Origin: Candidatus Endomicrobiellum trichonymphae
Lineage (GTDB): Bacteria; Elusimicrobiota; Endomicrobiia; Endomicrobiales; Endomicrobiaceae
Direction of reading: 5' to 3'
Assembly: GCF_002355835.1 (NCBI RefSeq)
Contig: NZ_AP017459.1
Location: 620,001-684,000, forward strand
DNA length: 64,000 nt
Below the pieces are notes generated by a model. The model did no database searches, had not been told where the DNA came from, and was given only the letters and a program-made list of their open reading frames with translations. Below, piece by piece: positions 7,183 through 15,971 of this stretch. Each line of letters begins with the position of its first letter. The stretch's first letter is position 1. A program made the position numbers and the translations under genes.

Positions 7183-8445
7183 ATGGGCAATACTATTACA
7201 GAAAAAATATTGGCCTCACACTGCGGAAAAAAAGTTGTTGAGCCCGGTGAGTTTATAGAGCCAAAAATTGATATAGCTCTTTCAAACGATGTTACGGCGC
7301 CTTTGGCAGTAAAAGAATTTAGAAAAACAGGAATAAAAAAGGTTTTTGATAAAAACAAAATAGCTTTAGTTATGGATCATTTTACGCCCAATAAAGATAT
7401 TTTAAGTGCAGAACACGTCAAATTTGTAAGAGAATTCGCAAAAGAGCATAAAATAAAACATTACTACGAAGGCGGAAATGTAGGTGTAGAACATGCCTTG
7501 CTTCCTGAAAAAGGCATTGTAGTTCCGGGAGATGTTATTATAGGTGCAGATTCACATACGTGTACTTACGGAGCATTAGGAGCATTTTCAACGGGAGGAG
7601 GTTCAACAGACATTGCAGCCGCTATGGCAACCGGAAAAATATGGTTTAAAGTTCCCAATTCAATTAAGTTTATTTTAAACAGAAAATTAAATAAATGGGT
7701 AAGCGGCAAAGATATTATACTTTATATAATCGGACTCATCGGCGTCGACGGAGCACTTTATAACTCAATGGAGTTCGACGGTCCTTTATGTAAAAAACTC
7801 ACAATGGCTGACAGATTTACGATAACTAATATGGCTATTGAAGCAGGCGGGAAAAACGGTATTTTTACGCCTGACGGAACCACCGAAAATTATGTGGCAA
7901 AAAGAGCACAAAGAAAATACAAATTTTATATAAGCGATAAAGATGCGAAATATTTAAAAATATATGAAATAGACTGCAGTAAAATTTTACCCCAAGTATC
8001 AATGCCTTTTTTACCATCAAATACTAAAGCCGTAAAAGATATTAAAAAAACTTATATAGATCAGGTCGTAATAGGTTCTTGTACTAACGGCAGAATTGAG
8101 GATTTAAGAGTTGCAGCATCGATTATAAAGAAAGGCAAAAAAGTAAATTCTAATGTTAGAACGCTTATAATCCCTGCTACGCCGGAAGTTTACTCTCAAG
8201 CTTTAGATGAAGGACTACTCAGGATATTTATGGACGCCGGAGCCATAATTTCTGCACCGACGTGCGGACCTTGTCTTGGCGGACATATGGGAATACTCGC
8301 ATCAGGGGAAAAGTGCGCTTCAACTACAAATAGAAATTTTAGAGGAAGAATGGGACATGTTGAATCTCAGTTATTTTTGGTAAACCCAGCGGTAGCGGCA
8401 GCATCAGCAATAAAAGGCTATATAGCATCACCGGATGAGATTTAA
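7183..8445 (+). CDS. leuC: 3-isopropylmalate dehydratase large subunit
   Basis: Aconitase-family [4Fe-4S] enzyme converting 2- to 3-isopropylmalate, acting with LeuD. The 420-residue length is typical of the archaeal/short bacterial type rather than the roughly 466-residue enterobacterial LeuC. Cluster ligands are visible at GSCTNGR (about residue 295-301) and in the [10 protein letters not shown] block; [22 protein letters not shown] is the substrate/cluster region (quoted here as two parts: [12 protein letters not shown] and [10 protein letters not shown]). It follows leuA by 3 nt, so the two are co-translated. All expected catalytic residues appear present. Confidence 0.95.
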
Positions 8446-8532
8446 TGCGAAACCCAGCAAAAAAAATGAATTACTACTGAAATGATAATTAAATCGAAAG
8501 CCCTAAAATCAAAAAGGAGCACAAGGAGCACT

Positions 8533-9030
8533 ATGATGATGTCTGACATAATTCTAAAAGGTAAAGTTCATAAATACGGTTCAAACGTAAACACAGACGA
8601 AATAATACCAGCAAGATATTTAAATACAACAGATCCTGCAATACTTTCAAAATACTGTATGGAAGATATAGATAAAAATTTCGTAAAGAATGTAAAAGCA
8701 GGAGATATAATAGTTGCAGAAAATAATTTTGGATGCGGATCTTCAAGAGAACATGCGCCGATAGCAATTAAAGCTTCAGGCATTTCAGCCGTAATAGCAA
8801 ACTCTTTTGCAAGAATATTTTTTAGAAATTCAATAAATATAGGACTTCCGATTTTGGAATCCCAGAAAGCTGTAAAAGCAATAGAAAATGGCGACGCTGT
8901 TGAAATAAATTTAACCAAAGGCATTATAAAAAATATAACTAAAAATGAGTCCTATCAGTCTCAGCCTTTTCCCGAATTTATGCAGAAAGTCATAAAATCC
9001 GGTGGACTTTTGGGATATATAAAAAGCTGA
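8533..9030 (+). CDS. leuD: 3-isopropylmalate dehydratase small subunit
   Basis: Swivelling-domain partner of LeuC. Motifs: [20 protein letters not shown] at the N-terminus and [12 protein letters not shown] in the active-site loop, ending at 165 residues, the normal size for the short LeuD type. The frame is open further upstream to 8482, but an ATGATGATG cluster at 8533-8541 is preceded by AAGGAG (8523-8528), and conservation begins just after it, so the start is in that cluster. A second AAGGAG copy nine bases further up makes an unusual tandem ribosome-binding site. Confidence 0.93.
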
Positions 9031-9074
9031 TATAAAAATCTTAAAATAATAATTAAGTAAGGAGACTATGTGAG

Positions 9075-10136
9075 ATGTCTAAAACTTATAAAATAGCGAT
9101 TATTCCCGGCGACGGGACAGGCCCAGAAGTAATAAAAGAAGGTATAAAAATAATTGAAACTGCGGCAAAAAAAAATGATTTTAAACTTGATTTTACAGAC
9201 TATGATCTCGGCGGACAGAGATATTTAAAAACAGGCGAAATTCTTCCAGAAAGCGTTATAGAAGAGTTTAAAAAATTCGATGCAATGTATTTAGGGGCAA
9301 TAGGACATCCCGACGTAAAACCGGGAATTCTCGAAAAAGGCATTCTTTTAAAACTTCGTTTTGAACTCGATCAGTATATAAATCTGCGTCCGGTCAAACT
9401 TTATCCCAATGTCGAAACTCCTTTAAAGGATAAGAAACCCGAAGATATAGACATGGTAATTGTTCGCGAAAATACTGAAGGTTTATACACAGGAGCAGGC
9501 GGATTTCTTAAGAAAGACACGCCACAGGAAGTAGCAATCCAAGAATCTATAAATACAAGATTTGGCATTGAGAGATGTATACGTTATGCATTTAAACTTA
9601 CCCAAAATAGAGCAAAAAATAATAAACTGACCTTGTGCGGCAAAACAAATGTTCTAACTTATGCCTCAGATTTATGGCAGCGGACTTTCAATGCTGTTGC
9701 AAAAGAATATCCGCAGCTAAAAAGCGATTATGTAAATGTCGATGCAACATGTATGTGGTTTGTAAAAAATCCCGAATGGTTTGATGTCGTTGTCACCGAT
9801 AATCTTTTCGGCGACATTATTACGGATTTAGCCGCTATGATTCAGGGCGGTATGGGTGTTGCGGCAGGAGGAAATATCAATCCCGAAGGTGTGTCAATGT
9901 TTGAACCTATGGGCGGATCCGCTCCTAAATATACGGGATTAAACATAATAAACCCCATAGCAAGCATCAATGCAGGTGCAATGATGCTTGAAAAAATCGG
10001 CGAATCTAAAGCTGCAAAAGATATAGATAATGCGGTTATCAAAGCTTTGGAATTAGGTAAAATTAAAAGCATGTCGGCCGGGAAAATGGGACTTTCAACA
10101 ACAGAAGTCGGTGATTTAATCGCTTCATTCATATAA
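9075..10136 (+). CDS. leuB: 3-isopropylmalate dehydrogenase (isocitrate/isopropylmalate dehydrogenase family)
   Basis: NAD-dependent oxidative decarboxylation of 3-isopropylmalate. Motifs: [15 protein letters not shown] at the N-terminus, [30 protein letters not shown], the metal-binding [17 protein letters not shown], and [18 protein letters not shown] in the cofactor loop. At 353 residues it is the compact form also used for homoisocitrate or isocitrate in some lineages, but the leuACD neighbourhood makes the leucine assignment secure. A GGAGACT ribosome site sits before the ATG. Confidence 0.93.
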
Positions 10137-10215
10137 CCTGTAAACTAATTTTGTGTAAAAATACACTCTTCAAGTACTAATTTAGTTGCTTATCTTAAAA
10201 TCGCAGAGGAAAGAA

Positions 10216-11244
10216 ATGAAGAAACTCAAAGTAGCAGTAGCCGGTGCAACCGGTGCAGTAGGACTTGAAATTATTAAAATGCTTGAAAACAGAAATTTCC
10301 CTGTAGAAAGCATAAAATTTTTAGCTACGGAACGTTCCGTAGGCAAAAAATTGATATATAAAGGTAAAGAAGTCACAGTTGAATTACTTAAAAAAAACAG
10401 CGGAAAAGGCATTAATATTGCACTTTTCAGTGCTGGCGCAACGGTTTCTAAAGAATTTGCACCTTGCTTTGCGAGTGATGGATGTTTTGTTATAGATAAT
10501 TCAAGTGCATGGAGAATGAATAAAGAAATTCCTTTAGTTGTTCCAGAAGTAAACCCGCATGATTTAAAAAAAGAGAAAAAACTCATCGCAAATCCTAATT
10601 GTTCAACAATTCAAATGGTCGTAGCGTTAAAACCTTTGCATAATTTTGCAAAAATAAAAAGGGTTATCGTTTCAACATACCAAGCAGTTTCAGGTGCAGG
10701 GCAAAAAGGCATTAACGAACTTAAAGAGCAAACAAAAGCATGGGCTAAAGGTGAAATAATCCCTGAAGCAAACAAATTCCAGTACCAGATAGCTTTTAAC
10801 CTTATACCTCAGATAGATGTTTTCACAGAAAACGGATATACAAAAGAAGAAATGAAAATGACAAACGAAACAAAAAAAATTATAGGAGATAATTCAATAG
10901 AAGTCAGCGCAACATGCGTAAGAGTTCCTGTATTCCGTTCACATTCAGAAAGCGTATGGATTGAAACTGAAAAACCTCTTTCTCCTGGCCAAGCAAAAGA
11001 ATTGCTCTCAAAAACAGATGGAATCCAGCTTTTAGATGATCCTGAAAATAAAAAATATCCAATGCCTCTATTTGCAGAAAATATGCAAATAACCTATGTC
11101 GGAAGAATTCGTTCAGACATATCAACTATTTCAACAAAAAATAACGCCTTAACGTTTTGGATAGTATCTGATAATCTCTTAAAAGGTGCTGCGTTAAATG
11201 CAGTCCAAATTGCAGAAACACTTCTAAAAAAAGAACTGCTATAA
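10216..11244 (+). CDS. asd: Aspartate-semialdehyde dehydrogenase
   Basis: Reduces aspartyl phosphate to aspartate semialdehyde, branch point to lysine/diaminopimelate, threonine and methionine. N-terminal Rossmann motif VAVAGATGAVGLEIIKML; catalytic cysteine in NPNCSTIQMVVAL; active-site region TYQAVSGAGQKGINEL; 342 residues, normal. The frame opens at 10186, but GAGGAAAGAA directly before the ATG at 10216 and the start of conservation fix the start there. It is the last gene of the leu operon and converges on the polyamine genes, whose first reaction uses aspartate semialdehyde as a substrate. Confidence 0.95.
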   Translation: MKKLKVAVAGATGAVGLEIIKMLENRNFPVESIKFLATERSVGKKLIYKGKEVTVELLKKNSGKGINIALFSAGATVSKEFAPCFASDGCFVIDNSSAWRMNKEIPLVVPEVNPHDLKKEKKLIANPNCSTIQMVVALKPLHNFAKIKRVIVSTYQAVSGAGQKGINELKEQTKAWAKGEIIPEANKFQYQIAFNLIPQIDVFTENGYTKEEMKMTNETKKIIGDNSIEVSATCVRVPVFRSHSESVWIETEKPLSPGQAKELLSKTDGIQLLDDPENKKYPMPLFAENMQITYVGRIRSDISTISTKNNALTFWIVSDNLLKGAALNAVQIAETLLKKELL

Positions 11245-11313
11245 AAAAAAGAACATATCAAAATTCTCTCTTAACTGAATTCCTAATCAAAAATTAAAAT
11301 TACTAATTAAATT

Positions 11314-11360
11314 AAATCAAGTGTAGTAGCCGGCTTTTTATTCTGCCACATTTGATTTTT
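11314..11360 (+). terminator. Terminator of the leu-asd operon
   Basis: A 16-nt arm at 11314-11329 pairs with 11343-11358 (only one mismatch, two G-T wobbles) around a GC-containing loop (CCGGC), and the 3' arm runs into T-rich sequence. It sits 70 nt after the asd stop. With the minus-strand terminator at 11603-11646 it insulates two convergent operons. Confidence 0.7.
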
Positions 11361-11602
11361 TAGATTATTTTATTTCTTTATGAGAGTGCTATTTAATAAC
11401 AGTTAAAGATAAATATAATTATAATCAAAATTATTTATATTTATAAATATAAATTTGATTTAATATAACAATTTACTTTATTGTTTATAACTTACAAAAC
11501 CCTTTACTGTACTTAACATAATATATGTTATCGGACAATATAAAACATTAAAAACTATTAAGATTTAAAAAAATAAGGATTTTTAATGGACTTTTAAATA
11601 AA
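11361..11602. other. AT-only spacer between convergent operons
   Basis: Extremely AT-rich, with no ORF, gene remnant or RNA signature that I can recognise. It separates the two opposing terminators. Confidence 0.5.
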
Positions 11603-11646
11603 AAAGCAGTCTGAAATTTTAAAGTTTAAAAAATCCAGACTGCTTT
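11603..11646 (-). terminator. Terminator of the carboxynorspermidine operon
   Basis: Perfect 11-bp arms AAAGCAGTCTG (11603-11613) and CAGACTGCTTT (11636-11646) with a 22-nt AT loop. On the minus strand the hairpin is followed by a T-run (TTTTATTT), and it lies about 20 nt after the stop of the dehydrogenase gene. Confidence 0.75.
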
Positions 11647-11667
11647 AAAAGTTGAGATTTTGTCTAA

Positions 11668-12885
11668 TTAAATTGTCATTGTTTCAGTTGAAATACCCAT
11701 GTCTTTAAGCAAGTCAAGATAAGGATCAGGCACAAGTTCTTCAACATTTACCATTTTCTTGACATCCCAGTCCCCTTTGGCAATTAAAATAGCTGCCGCA
11801 ATAACCGGAGTACCTGCAGTATAACTGATAGCTTGAGATTCTACTTCTTCATAACAAAATCTATGATCACATACACTATATATTAAAAACTCTTTCCTGC
11901 GTCCATCTTTTGTTCCTACTATCAAATCTCCTATACAAGTTTTACCTCTATAGTAAGGAGCAAGAGTTTTAGGATCAGGGAGACAGGCTTTTACCACTTT
12001 CAAAGGTACTACTTCAACTCCTTCAGCCGTTCTTACAGGTTTTTCCGACAAAAGTCCTATATTTTTAAGTACATTGAAACAATTTATATAGTGATCACTG
12101 AACCCCATCCAAAACCTTATTGAATTTGCATCAATATTTTTTGAAAGAGAGTGAATTTCATCATGACCGGTTAAATATATAGTCTGCTTGCCCACTACAG
12201 GAAAATCGTATACTTTCTTTTCAGAATGAATTGGCTTACACACCCATTGTCTGTCTATCCATGTCCAAACTTTTACGAATTCTCTGAAATTTATCTCAGG
12301 ATCAAAATTTGTAGAAAAATATCTACCATGATTTCCGGCATTGACATCCATAATATCTATCGTATCTATGTCGTCAAAAAAATGCCTCTTCGCATACGCT
12401 ACATAAGCATTTACAACGCCAGGATCAAATCCAGCGCCCAAAATTGCAGTTATACATTTATCCTGACAGCGGTCTTTACGTTTCCACTCATAGTTTGCAT
12501 ACCATGGTGGATCTTCGCACACTTTATTCGGTTCTTCGTGTATTGCCGTATCTATATATGCTGAACCGGTTTCTATACAAGCTTCCAGTATCGACATATT
12601 GCAAAATACCGACACTAAATTTACGGTAATGGAAATTTTAAGATCTTTCATCAACTTTACCATCTCGGGAATATTTAAAGCATCTATTTGTCTGATTTGT
12701 ATTTTTTTTGAAGTATTCTTATAATTCTTTTTGCGTTCTATGCTTTCCAATATTTGCTCGCAGTTTTCAAGCGAACGCGAAGCTAAATAAATATCTCCAA
12801 ATAAATCATTGTTTTGCGCAAGTTTATGGGCAGCAACATGAGATACGCCGCCCGCTCCCAACAAAAGTATGTTTCTTTTTCCCAT
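11668..12885 (-). CDS. Carboxynorspermidine/carboxyspermidine dehydrogenase (Lys1/saccharopine dehydrogenase-like)
   Basis: Reductively condenses aspartate semialdehyde with a diamine to carboxy(nor)spermidine, the step before NspC. N-terminal Rossmann motif LLLGAGGVSHVAAHKLAQN, then ASRSLENCEQ and the ILGAGFDPGVVNAYVAYA block typical of the carboxynorspermidine synthase branch of the saccharopine dehydrogenase family. An upstream GTG (12906) overlapping the nspC stop as GTGA is possible, but an AGGAGGG lies between it and the ATG at 12885, and the Rossmann fold starts there. Annotation as lysine dehydrogenase is the common alternative; the adjacent nspC argues against it. Confidence 0.85.
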   Translation of the reverse strand: MGKRNILLLGAGGVSHVAAHKLAQNNDLFGDIYLASRSLENCEQILESIERKKNYKNTSKKIQIRQIDALNIPEMVKLMKDLKISITVNLVSVFCNMSILEACIETGSAYIDTAIHEEPNKVCEDPPWYANYEWKRKDRCQDKCITAILGAGFDPGVVNAYVAYAKRHFFDDIDTIDIMDVNAGNHGRYFSTNFDPEINFREFVKVWTWIDRQWVCKPIHSEKKVYDFPVVGKQTIYLTGHDEIHSLSKNIDANSIRFWMGFSDHYINCFNVLKNIGLLSEKPVRTAEGVEVVPLKVVKACLPDPKTLAPYYRGKTCIGDLIVGTKDGRRKEFLIYSVCDHRFCYEEVESQAISYTAGTPVIAAAILIAKGDWDVKKMVNVEELVPDPYLDLLKDMGISTETMTI

Positions 12886-12902
12886 CTCCGGTAAATCCCT
12901 CC

Positions 12903-14009
12903 TCACGACAAATCTTTTAAAAAGTCATTATATAAAAACTTCTTTATAATTTCCATTTTCCCATCGAGTTTCTTAACGACAATGGAAGGCATTTTAAGTC
13001 CGTTAAACCAATTTTTCTTAACCATCGTATATCCAGCAGCATTGGCAAAATGCACTGTAGAACCGACTTTAAGTTTGTCCGCAAGCTTATACTCGCCGAA
13101 TATATCTCCGGCAAGACAAGATCTGCCGGCAATAATATATTCGTTTTTACCATCTTTAGCATTAATTTCTGCAGGAGTTCTATATATAAGCAAATCAAGC
13201 ATATGCGCTTCAATAGAAGCATCAACTATAGCGATATCTTTTACATTTTTTACAATGTCTAAAATTGTAGTAATAAGCTCGCAACTTTTTGTAATTGCGG
13301 TTTCACCTGGTTCCAAATAAACCAAAACGTTATGCTTCTTGCTAAAGCTTTTTAATTTTTTACAGAATTTATCCAAAGGATACCCGTCTTTTGTAAAATA
13401 CAATCCGCCGCCAAGGCTAACCCATTCGACTTTATTTAAAACTTTCTCATATTTTGCAGCTATTTCATCGAGCATTACGCTAAAACTTTTAAAATCATCA
13501 TTTTCGCAGTTATAGTGGAACATCAATCCGCTTATCTTATCTAAAACCGACATAATTTCTTCTTCCAAAGTGACACCGAGCCTTGAATATTTTCTTGAAG
13601 GATCAGCCAAATCAAAACGCGAATAACTTATTCCCGGATTTATTCTTAAACCAACCTTAATATGTTTTATATCATTATAAAACATATTAAGCTGCGATAC
13701 GGAGTTAAATATAATTTTGTCAGCAATATTTTTCAGCGCTTTAACATCGTCCGAAGAGTAAGCGACGCTGAAAGCATGCGTTTCTTTTCCGAACTTCTCA
13801 TGGCCAAGTTTTGCTTCATAAAAGGAACTACTAGTTGTGCCATCCATGTATTTACTCATTAAATCAAACACAGCCCATGTAGAGAAACATTTCAACGCCA
13901 GAACTGATTTAGCTCCGCTATTATCTCTTACATATTTAATCTTCTTCAGATTTCTAAGTAATTTTCTTTCGTCAATCAAGTAATACGGAGTTTCTATTTT
14001 TTTATTCAT
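12903..14009 (-). CDS. nspC: Carboxynorspermidine decarboxylase
   Basis: PLP-dependent alanine-racemase-fold decarboxylase making norspermidine or spermidine from its carboxy precursor. Substrate-side N-terminus ETPYYLIDERKLLRNL; PLP lysine in SVLALKCFSTWAVF; GLRINPGISYS; FHYNCEND; SLGGGLYFTKDGYP; and the C-terminal dimer-interface cysteine region IIAGRSCLAGDIFGEY. 368 residues, full length. It precedes the dehydrogenase with a 4-nt junction. Its middle (13185-13457) is duplicated, inverted and identical, inside the neighbouring methylase remnant. Confidence 0.94.
   Translation of the reverse strand: MNKKIETPYYLIDERKLLRNLKKIKYVRDNSGAKSVLALKCFSTWAVFDLMSKYMDGTTSSSFYEAKLGHEKFGKETHAFSVAYSSDDVKALKNIADKIIFNSVSQLNMFYNDIKHIKVGLRINPGISYSRFDLADPSRKYSRLGVTLEEEIMSVLDKISGLMFHYNCENDDFKSFSVMLDEIAAKYEKVLNKVEWVSLGGGLYFTKDGYPLDKFCKKLKSFSKKHNVLVYLEPGETAITKSCELITTILDIVKNVKDIAIVDASIEAHMLDLLIYRTPAEINAKDGKNEYIIAGRSCLAGDIFGEYKLADKLKVGSTVHFANAAGYTMVKKNWFNGLKMPSIVVKKLDGKMEIIKKFLYNDFLKDLS
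13185..13457 (-). repeat. Inverted repeat arm A: middle of nspC (273 bp)
   Basis: Coding segment of nspC from AKYEKVLNKVEW to EAHMLDLLI. Read on the opposite strand, it matches 14393-14665 with no mismatch that I could find by eye across all 273 positions. The arms are separated by 935 bp and point towards each other. Confidence 0.93.
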
Positions 14010-14118
14010 TCTATTCCCAAAAATAAGAGACTGCGCGTTTTATCCCTTTTTCTCTAAAATATGTAAAAATTCATAATTATGTTCTGATTTATAATTTCTG
14101 TTTTCCGTCTTATCTGAT

Positions 14119-14821
14119 TTAAACCTTTGATATTTTTGTTTCACTAATCACTTTAATTTCTTTTATATTCATCAACCCTTCGTTATTATAACTTAAAAAA
14201 ATATATCTGAACTGCCTTGTATTATAAGGAGGATCTAAATACAATATATCTCCAGAAATTTCTTTAATTAATTTATTGCTATCTTTATTATAAACTTTAT
14301 GCCTATTGTTGTTTACTTCAAAAAAAGCAGGTTCCAAGACAATATCCTTTAATGATTGCTTTATACTCTTGAGAAATGCTCCATATATAGATGCAAAATA
14401 TGAGAAAGTTTTAAATAAAGTCGAATGGGTTAGCCTTGGCGGCGGATTGTATTTTACAAAAGACGGGTATCCTTTGGATAAATTCTGTAAAAAATTAAAA
14501 AGCTTTAGCAAGAAGCATAACGTTTTGGTTTATTTGGAACCAGGTGAAACCGCAATTACAAAAAGTTGCGAGCTTATTACTACAATTTTAGACATTGTAA
14601 AAAATGTAAAAGATATCGCTATAGTTGATGCTTCTATTGAAGCGCATATGCTTGATTTGCTTATAACCTTTTTAACTTCTTTCTTAAATAGTCTTCAGGA
14701 CAACACCTGTACCCGCAAATAAATCGCAGAATATCATATTTGACAGATTATGTCCGACAATAGAATACACCGTTTCTTTTATAAAAGATAATAATTTGTA
14801 TTTTGATCCGATATAGTTCAT
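14119..14821 (-). pseudogene. Broken D12-class N6-adenine DNA methyltransferase, split by an nspC fragment
   Basis: Two halves of one methylase flank the nspC copy. On the minus strand from 14821: MNYIGSKYKLLSFIKETV and FCDLFAGTGVV (AdoMet-binding motif I), then the foreign 273 bp, then YFASIYGAFLKSIKQSLKDI, PAFFEVNNNRHKVYNKD and DILYLDPPYNTRQF (catalytic DPPY motif) near 14230. A frameshift follows motif I, and the remaining spacer is shorter than in the family, so native sequence was lost when the fragment arrived. It is the third gene of a decayed restriction-modification operon. Confidence 0.85.
14393..14665 (+). repeat. Inverted repeat arm B: perfect copy of the middle of nspC inside a methylase
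   Basis: Identical to nspC 13185-13457 but on the other strand. The left edge shares ATATTTTGCA-type microhomology with the methylase sequence and the right edge shares TATAAG, so neither junction carries insertion-sequence ends or target-site duplications. A plus-strand frame (14306-14722) reads through it but encodes only this fragment plus antisense methylase, so it is not a gene. Confidence 0.93.
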
Positions 14822-14828
14822 TTATCAG

Positions 14829-15445
14829 CTATTCTTCCTTTTCATTAGATAATATCATTGAAAACTGATTTCTTGACTTTGCCAACTTAGATTGAGTTGA
14901 AAACACAACTTGAGACATAAATTCTATAACATTCAAAATCTGACTATCAATATTTTATTTCCACTTTTCACTTCCTTTGTACCAATAATATATTCCTAGA
15001 AAATCCCCACGAATATTATTACTTACACATTTTTCACAATATCTTGACTTGAGTAAATTATTCGGTCTGGTCAGTAAAATAAATTTACTTTTTATCATTT
15101 CTTCACTCATATTGTCATTATTAATATTTTCATCTTTTGACCATCTTATTTGTGGAAATTTATGGTCTACTTCAAGTTCTCCTTATAACATCGCTTCTTC
15201 AAAACCATATATTTCTTTTACTTTTTTTGATAGTTTAAGCGATATACCCGATCTTAATTTTGTTTCTTGCAAGATTTCCAAAGATTTTAGTTTTCTATGA
15301 ATAGTTTTATTATTACATTTTTTACAAAAAACTTTTTTATAGAATTTCCCCTCTTCATCAGTGTCCAACTGTATTCCTTTTTGTCTCCATATCTGCCAAG
15401 TTTTTGCTTGACTTGAGTTAAGTCCACATTTTGCACAATTTTAAA
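14829..15445 (-). pseudogene. Broken HNH-type type II restriction endonuclease
   Basis: Reading the minus strand gives CAKCGLNSSQAKTWQIWRQK, YKKVFCKKCNNKTIHRKL (zinc-finger-like cysteine pairs), LEVDHKFPQIRW (HNH-like His in DHKFP), RPNNLLKSRYCEKC, and, after an in-frame TAA at 14955-14957, QILNVIEFMSQVVFSTQSKL ending at TAG 14829-14831. A second stop follows FGFEEAML (15183). Two nonsense mutations inactivate it. It lies between two methylase remnants in the same orientation, giving the classic M-R-M order. Endonuclease assignment rests on the Cys/HNH pattern and context. Confidence 0.7.
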
Positions 15446-15971
15446 AAGAAAATAGTCGCTTTTGAGCGGCTCTACACTTCCACATAAAGTTCACTCCAAA
15501 CTTTCCTCTATTTCCTTCAATATTTTTTATTACAATTCCCTTTAACTTTACTTTAAAATTTTTTTATCATATCCATGCAATAAAAACTTAAAGGAACAAC
15601 TTCACTTTTTTATATATATCGCCAATAACTAATGCAAAATATTTATTTGTCTCCAAATATTACAACAAATTTTCGCATACTGTTTTTCATAATAGGCATC
15701 TTGCATATTACCTTTTATGTAATCAATCATATTCTTATTTATGTTAAAACCTATATATCTGCGATTTAATTTTTCACATTCATACAATGTCGTACCACTT
15801 CCTGCAAATGCCTCTAAAACAATATCATTTTCATTCGTGTACCTTCTTAATTAACTGACTTGGTATCTGTAGAATAAAATCACCATGATAAATATTCTTG
15901 TGTTTTTCGATTTTCTTTCTCTCTTTAATATTTTCTTCATTTGAAAATATATTCGTATGACCTTTATTCAT
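15446..15971 (-). pseudogene. Broken type II DNA methyltransferase (FAGSGTT type)
   Basis: Starts at an ATG (15969-15971) with MNKGHTNIFSNEENIKERKK, then, after a stop and frameshift near 15850, NENDIVLEAFAGSGTTLYE (AdoMet motif I), KLNRRYIGFNINKNMIDYI, and later LSFYCMDMIKK, GIVIKNIEGNRGKFGVN, WKCRAAQKRLFSF, matching the C-terminal region of N4-cytosine/N6-adenine methylases with circularly permuted motifs. Several frameshifts, and the catalytic region between YYEKQY and the C-terminus is shortened. First gene of the decayed M-R-M operon. Confidence 0.75.

Follow-up and report, generated by a model that had tools for sequence, protein, structure and literature searches.

A perfect inverted copy of part of nspC within a decayed methylase gene of Candidatus Endomicrobiellum trichonymphae: a template-switch scar possibly formed during DNA amplification or assembly

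The window, by which the whole 64-kb stretch analysed is meant, comprises bases 620001-684000 of contig C1 (1,114,532 bases) in the 1.13-Mb, four-contig genome of Candidatus Endomicrobiellum trichonymphae (labelled G000 here). The locus described in this article contains an intact gene for carboxynorspermidine decarboxylase (nspC), its partner, a carboxynorspermidine synthase-like gene which overlaps it by 4 nt, and the remains of a D12 DNA methylase in which part of nspC recurs on the opposite strand. The features, in window coordinates, are the following:

11668-12906, minus strand: carboxynorspermidine synthase-like gene (NF043000 458 bits, below the curated cut-off of 800; Pfam Sacchrp_dh_NADP and Sacchrp_dh_C)
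12903-14009, minus strand: nspC, carboxynorspermidine decarboxylase, intact, 368 aa (TIGR01047 equivalog, 421.8 bits, above the cut-off)
13185-13463, plus strand: arm 1 (source), in the middle of nspC; perfect over 13185-13458, 278/279 over the full arm
13459-14391, no strand: 933-nt segment between the perfect arms, with the promoter side and first half of nspC and the 3' part of the methylase remnant
14119-14391, minus strand: 3' remnant of the D12 methylase (PF02086; DPPYN motif), with an internal deletion of ~53 aa by comparison with homologues
14387-14394, minus strand: left junction, GCA[T]CTAT; the source reads GCA[G]CTAT, one base different, and the junction codes for A-S-I-Y as in methylase homologues
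14387-14665, minus strand: arm 2 (inverted copy) within the methylase remnant; perfect over 14392-14665
14657-14665, minus strand: right junction, TATAAGCAA; up to 9 nt common to the source and, judging from the V-I-S-N-D motif, to the original methylase
14666-14821, minus strand: 5' remnant of the D12 methylase (MNYIGSKYKLL...FAGTGVV), frameshifted before the patch

The perfect inverted run extends over 274 nt (13185-13458 versus 14392-14665) and is followed by one mismatch (13459, G/T) and four further matches, which gives arms of 279 nt with 278 identical positions (BLAST E = 1.7e-143). An earlier reading made from the sequence alone had described a perfect 273-bp inverted copy flanking a 935-bp segment; the copy is real and perfect, its length was given one base short, and the spacer measures 933 nt between the perfect arms or 923 nt between the 279-nt arms. 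No comparable repeat was found elsewhere in the 64-kb window. What was inserted is nothing but coding sequence of nspC, and the hallmarks of insertion sequences or transposons (terminal inverted repeats, target-site duplication, transposase) were not seen; flanking repeats and further copies are lacking, in agreement with the earlier observation that insertion-sequence ends do not occur here, and a search of the plasmid collection returned distant nspC homologues only. Elsewhere in the window, a 971-nt stretch (681-1651) is repeated at 99.9% identity ~286 kb away on the other strand (C1 907762-908732), and its two ORFs matched no Pfam or NCBIfam family.

The target of the copy is the methylase remnant (PF02086), whose N part lies at 14681-14815 and C part at 14155-14403. 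Two further lesions had been overlooked: a frameshift after ...FAGTGVV, separate from the patch, and a deletion that leaves ~14 aa between the DPPYN and SYNNEG motifs, compared with 67 aa in the homologues that have SYNNEG. Because these are present as well, the methylase is not a working gene that was knocked out by the copy event alone.

Since no uninterrupted orthologue was found at this locus in the genus, the junctions were compared with methylase homologues from elsewhere. On the right side, read in the methylase direction, the K-K-V of the 5' remnant runs on into I-S-N across the junction, where homologues have K-K-I-I-[STA]-N-D or close variants. With the motif continuing in this way, the original target very likely had TATAAGCAA there too, the 9 nt with which the patch begins, and this supports the microhomology suspected at this end. 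For the left junction the sequence-only reading had proposed microhomology over ATATTTTGCA; GCA and CTAT around the mismatch do fit a target encoding A-S-I-Y, and the rest may belong to the source only. The two junction points are 285-288 nt apart in those homologues that come nearest to the 5' remnant (~366 nt in two others) and 258 nt apart here, so that the patch replaced a slightly longer piece. On the sequence, this anatomy establishes a two-sided, microhomology-mediated inverted template switch, and it is silent on which polymerase made the switch. The earlier suggestion of a replication template switch at microhomology is thus supported by the TATAAGCAA junction and by two more patches of the same kind described below.

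The locus was compared across the genus. The inverted copy was sought in 41 other genomes and was absent from all of them, and nspC is intact and usually single in the other members; in G021 a second, partial nspC (codons 224-368, 80% identity to the protein of the window) occurs on a separate contig (G021:C6:21119-21502). The closest relative, Hs463_bin80 (L046 in G063; 93.6% DNA identity), has an intact nspC and lacks a counterpart of 14166-15208, and TA26 (L047) lacks the whole restriction-modification stretch. An uninterrupted orthologous methylase, for which a comparison with related strains had been proposed, was found at this place in no member of the genus, the stretch being absent in G063 and TA26. 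Since the relatives carry nspC intact without the copy (0/41), the present orientation of nspC is, by this comparison of genomes, ancestral and the copy private to this assembly.

These observations bear directly on the proposal that the arms form an accidental on/off switch for polyamine synthesis, in which a RecA-dependent flip would cost nspC its last 93 codons (OFF) and a flip back would restore them (ON). Identical inverted arms do surround the first half of nspC with its promoter, their 274 identical nt would suffice for homologous recombination, and a flip could happen because an intact recA is present; the flipped gene would consist of the first 275 codons plus ~18 foreign ones (ORF 14306-14722). 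That inversion of 13459-14391 would switch nspC off follows from the anatomy, but no other genus genome has the arms, the present orientation is ancestral (L046), and the single assembly contains one orientation. Moreover, arm 2 lies in dead sequence without regulatory content, and the comparable patches at other places of the chromosome surround nothing that resembles a switch. The genes inspected near the locus included no recognisable recombinase; recA is present in the genome. A polyamine-synthesis switch would, if true, matter more than a scar; it has no support, and we give it hardly any credence.

A scan for local inverted repeats, which covered 864 kb of the 1,114,532-base chromosome with the window included, revealed two further clear local, inverted, perfect patches:

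L148 12847-13053 / 13269-13475 (C1 112847-113475), inverted: patch of 207 nt, perfect, breaking a PolyA_pol/HD gene
L150 9789-9833 / 11061-11105 (45 nt) and 9446-9468 / 11107-11129 (23 nt) (C1 209446-211129), inverted: complex patch

The L148 junctions, compared with the relative G063, share 7-8 nt (ACCGACA) and ~10 nt (AAAATGATAT) with the original target, the chance of a microhomology run of at least 8 being ~3e-4 per junction. The complex patch of L150 extends over 9446-11233 in all (C1 209446-211233). Its two inverted pieces derive from 1.2-1.7 kb away and are enclosed by the copies of a 90-nt duplication, where a Maf-like gene has its 3' end; G063 has neither patch nor duplication at this locus. 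All three patches are inverted and ~0.2-1.7 kb from their source, and in the two large events the replaced and inserted lengths are alike (~288 to 258 nt for the nspC patch and, relative to G063, 223 to 200 nt for L148). An all-against-all comparison returned no distant patches of 40-350 nt save one 40-nt match; the remainder were gene-sized duplicates. Two other repeats of the chromosome were recorded. A long CRISPR-like array (repeat GTCGCGCCCCGTGTGGGCGCGTGAATTGAAAT) occupies L184 ~7357-15841 (C1 327357-335841), and two of its spacers have a 27-nt stretch in common in opposite orientation (10300-10326 and 13145-13171); this 27-nt hit, being between CRISPR-like spacers, was left out of the patch count. 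A 3.2-kb direct duplication of 99.5% identity, with 2.4 kb between its copies, occurs at L189 7220-10379 and 12796-15966 (C1 577220-585966).

Control samples were taken from six relatives (340 kb of G063, 400 kb of G062, 396 kb of G041, and 400 kb for G018, G007 and G044). None of the three patches is shared with G063, and no patch occurs in the 340 kb sampled from it. The 400 kb of G062 contain one (L225 960-1321, 53 nt perfect, intergenic, from the 5' end of a purF-like gene). In the 396 kb of G041, a genome obtained by whole-genome amplification (WGA), there is one of 90 nt with two mismatches (L251 7624-8184, 97.8%, intergenic, exonuclease III-like source) besides an array at a contig end, and a large perfect patch inside a gene is absent. 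No repeat above 21 nt was found in the 400 kb of G018, G007 and G044. The WGA and MAG genomes compared are too few for a significant difference in rate.

The perfect cores of the patches of G000 amount to 549 nt and show zero differences, which corresponds to a divergence of at most 0.54% (95%), or ~8.5% of the 6.4% DNA divergence from G063. If patches had arisen evenly since the split from G063, three this young would be expected with p ~6e-4, a rough value which ignores purging, conversion and differing rates and depends on patches that were defined by their perfect cores. A very recent event, one of the two causes that had been proposed for the perfect identity, is supported: the cores are without divergence and the copy occurs in no relative. 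Active gene conversion, the other cause of identity then considered, was rejected as unnecessary, the 45- and 23-nt arms elsewhere in the chromosome being equally identical. Patches with 1-15% divergence, of which a steady process would be expected to leave more, were sought in 864 kb of G000 and 340 kb of G063. None was found, and this speaks against a steady build-up of patches in the cell. Inheritance would appear as sharing with a close relative or as a series of ages, and the search for these yielded only the one 97.8% patch of G041.

The L148 patch is informative on account of the gene it breaks, a member of the tRNA-nucleotidyltransferase family whose remaining parts carry no other lesion. 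Most genomes of the genus, including reduced ones of 200-500 kb, have two PolyA_pol genes with long open frames, and only in G000 is the second copy shortened, by the patch, to 150 codons. An encoded CCA is absent in 17/17 tRNA genes checked. The break need not be lethal, since the genome also has an intact paralogue (C1 233285) with the full CCA-adding-type domain set. Very recent loss of a gene kept almost universally is nevertheless less likely than a wrong consensus. The sequence-only reading had named an assembly artefact as the main alternative, and that alternative is stronger than was thought, because a like patch in the same assembly breaks this conserved gene.

We lean, with confidence barely past even, towards a non-functional template-switch scar formed during amplification or assembly. 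A strand that was copying the methylase remnant would have stalled at TATAAGCAA and moved over ~1.2 kb to the inverted match of this site in nspC. It would then have copied nspC in reverse for ~275 nt before it came back to the methylase at GCA/CTAT, and a methylase segment of similar length would have been passed over. In the leading placement the event would have occurred outside the cell, as a phi29 chimera of multiple displacement amplification (MDA) or an equivalent gap-filling error that entered the assembled consensus. The template-switch anatomy can be read in the DNA itself; the copying direction and the placement outside the cell are what we infer. Chimeras made by phi29 are 85% inverted, join sites mostly less than 10 kb apart and carry 2-21 nt of microhomology (PMC1855051), and phi29 WGA DNA has been the source of symbiont genomes from single termite protists (PMC7608387; PMC8809381). 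The patches fall within this description, with inverted sources less than 10 kb away and microhomology of up to 9 nt plus GCA/CTAT at nspC, and of 7-8 and 10 nt at L148. By our own reasoning, mate reads placed into a gap in the wrong orientation would likewise leave a nearby inverted piece of about the length of the gap. Several points oppose an artefact: many symbiont copies are amplified at once in the WGA of one protist, and a chimera should then normally remain in the minority; the nspC patch lies in dead DNA, which would tolerate a real mutation; short inverted copies of a comparable kind occur between genes in G062 and G041, and the two mismatches of the one in G041 suggest that such events can be real and lasting; and G041, although itself a WGA genome, shows no large perfect patch inside a gene in its 396 kb.

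That the same scar was formed very recently in a living cell, and fixed without function by drift in a clonal endosymbiont under weak purifying selection, is a serious contender to which we assign somewhat less than an even chance. With the methylase already in decay, the patch would have been neutral; it lies in a pseudogene, within a restriction-modification region in decay whose 14166-15208 part has no counterpart in the closest relative. Similar inverted copies in other members of the genus, one of them diverged by two changes, and the closeness of replaced and inserted length at nspC (~288 to 258 nt) and at L148 (223 to 200 nt) also agree with an origin in the cell. The gene recJ, for a single-stranded DNA (ssDNA) exonuclease, was undetected in G000, where recA and xseA are present, and this combination permits an in vivo event without singling it out. 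As a cause, recJ loss was rejected as non-discriminating, since recJ is missing or broken also in G063, G062, G007, G044 and G018, which have few or no patches. Across the genus, recJ scores above the cut-off in only 13/42 genomes, and broken remnants in G019, G007, G061 and G041 indicate loss in progress. An in vivo origin is further opposed by the L148 patch, which breaks an otherwise intact gene kept almost universally, and by the scan of 864 kb, which brought to light neither an older patch nor one that G063 has as well; the missing age series lowers this claim, although a single very recent event need not show one.

Short-patch double illegitimate recombination, in which a short ssDNA fragment anneals at the replication fork, has been described for Acinetobacter baylyi and is suppressed by recJ. 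Such a fragment, in place of a jumping nascent strand, would account for the two-sided microhomology and the near-equal replacement lengths, and recJ was undetected in G000; but donors from the whole genome in either orientation would then be expected, whereas all short patches here are local (<2 kb) and inverted, and the all-against-all comparison gave only one distant match, of 40 nt, in the 40-350 nt range. We therefore consider this route very improbable.

If the scar of amplification or assembly that we favour is the correct reading, at least one conserved gene of the reference symbiont genome (C1 112847-113475, tRNA-nucleotidyltransferase family) is wrongly scored as broken, and perfect inverted repeats within 2 kb would offer a simple quality check for assemblies of amplified DNA. 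If the patches are real, they would show that template switching takes part in the decay of genes in an obligate endosymbiont. A wider claim, which we think rather unlikely, is that the patches are real and that genes of this endosymbiont lineage are repeatedly put out of action by inverted template switches, two-sided ones which overwrite 200-290 nt of a gene with a reversed piece from nearby at near-constant length, a decay route independent of transposons.

Three known systems can be compared with the locus. Chimeras of MDA (Lasken and Stockwell, 2007; PMC1855051) share with the patch the inverted join, the distance below 10 kb, the microhomology of 2-21 nt and the lack of transposon ends; unlike them, the patch has two junctions instead of one, returns to its target, and stands in the consensus assembly and not only in single reads. 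Invertible phase-variation segments resemble the locus in that inverted repeats enclose a promoter together with the beginning of a gene, whereas here the arms are not conserved, no recombination site was seen, arm 2 lies in a pseudogene and nothing points to two states. Template-switch mutations of the quasipalindrome, FoSTeS and MMBIR types are known to arise in vivo. The patch is longer and its spacing wider than in classical quasipalindrome events, and G000 shows no age spectrum; in common with in vivo template-switch mutations it has a local inverted source and microhomology at its junctions, and the complex patch with its duplication at L150 is of the same character.
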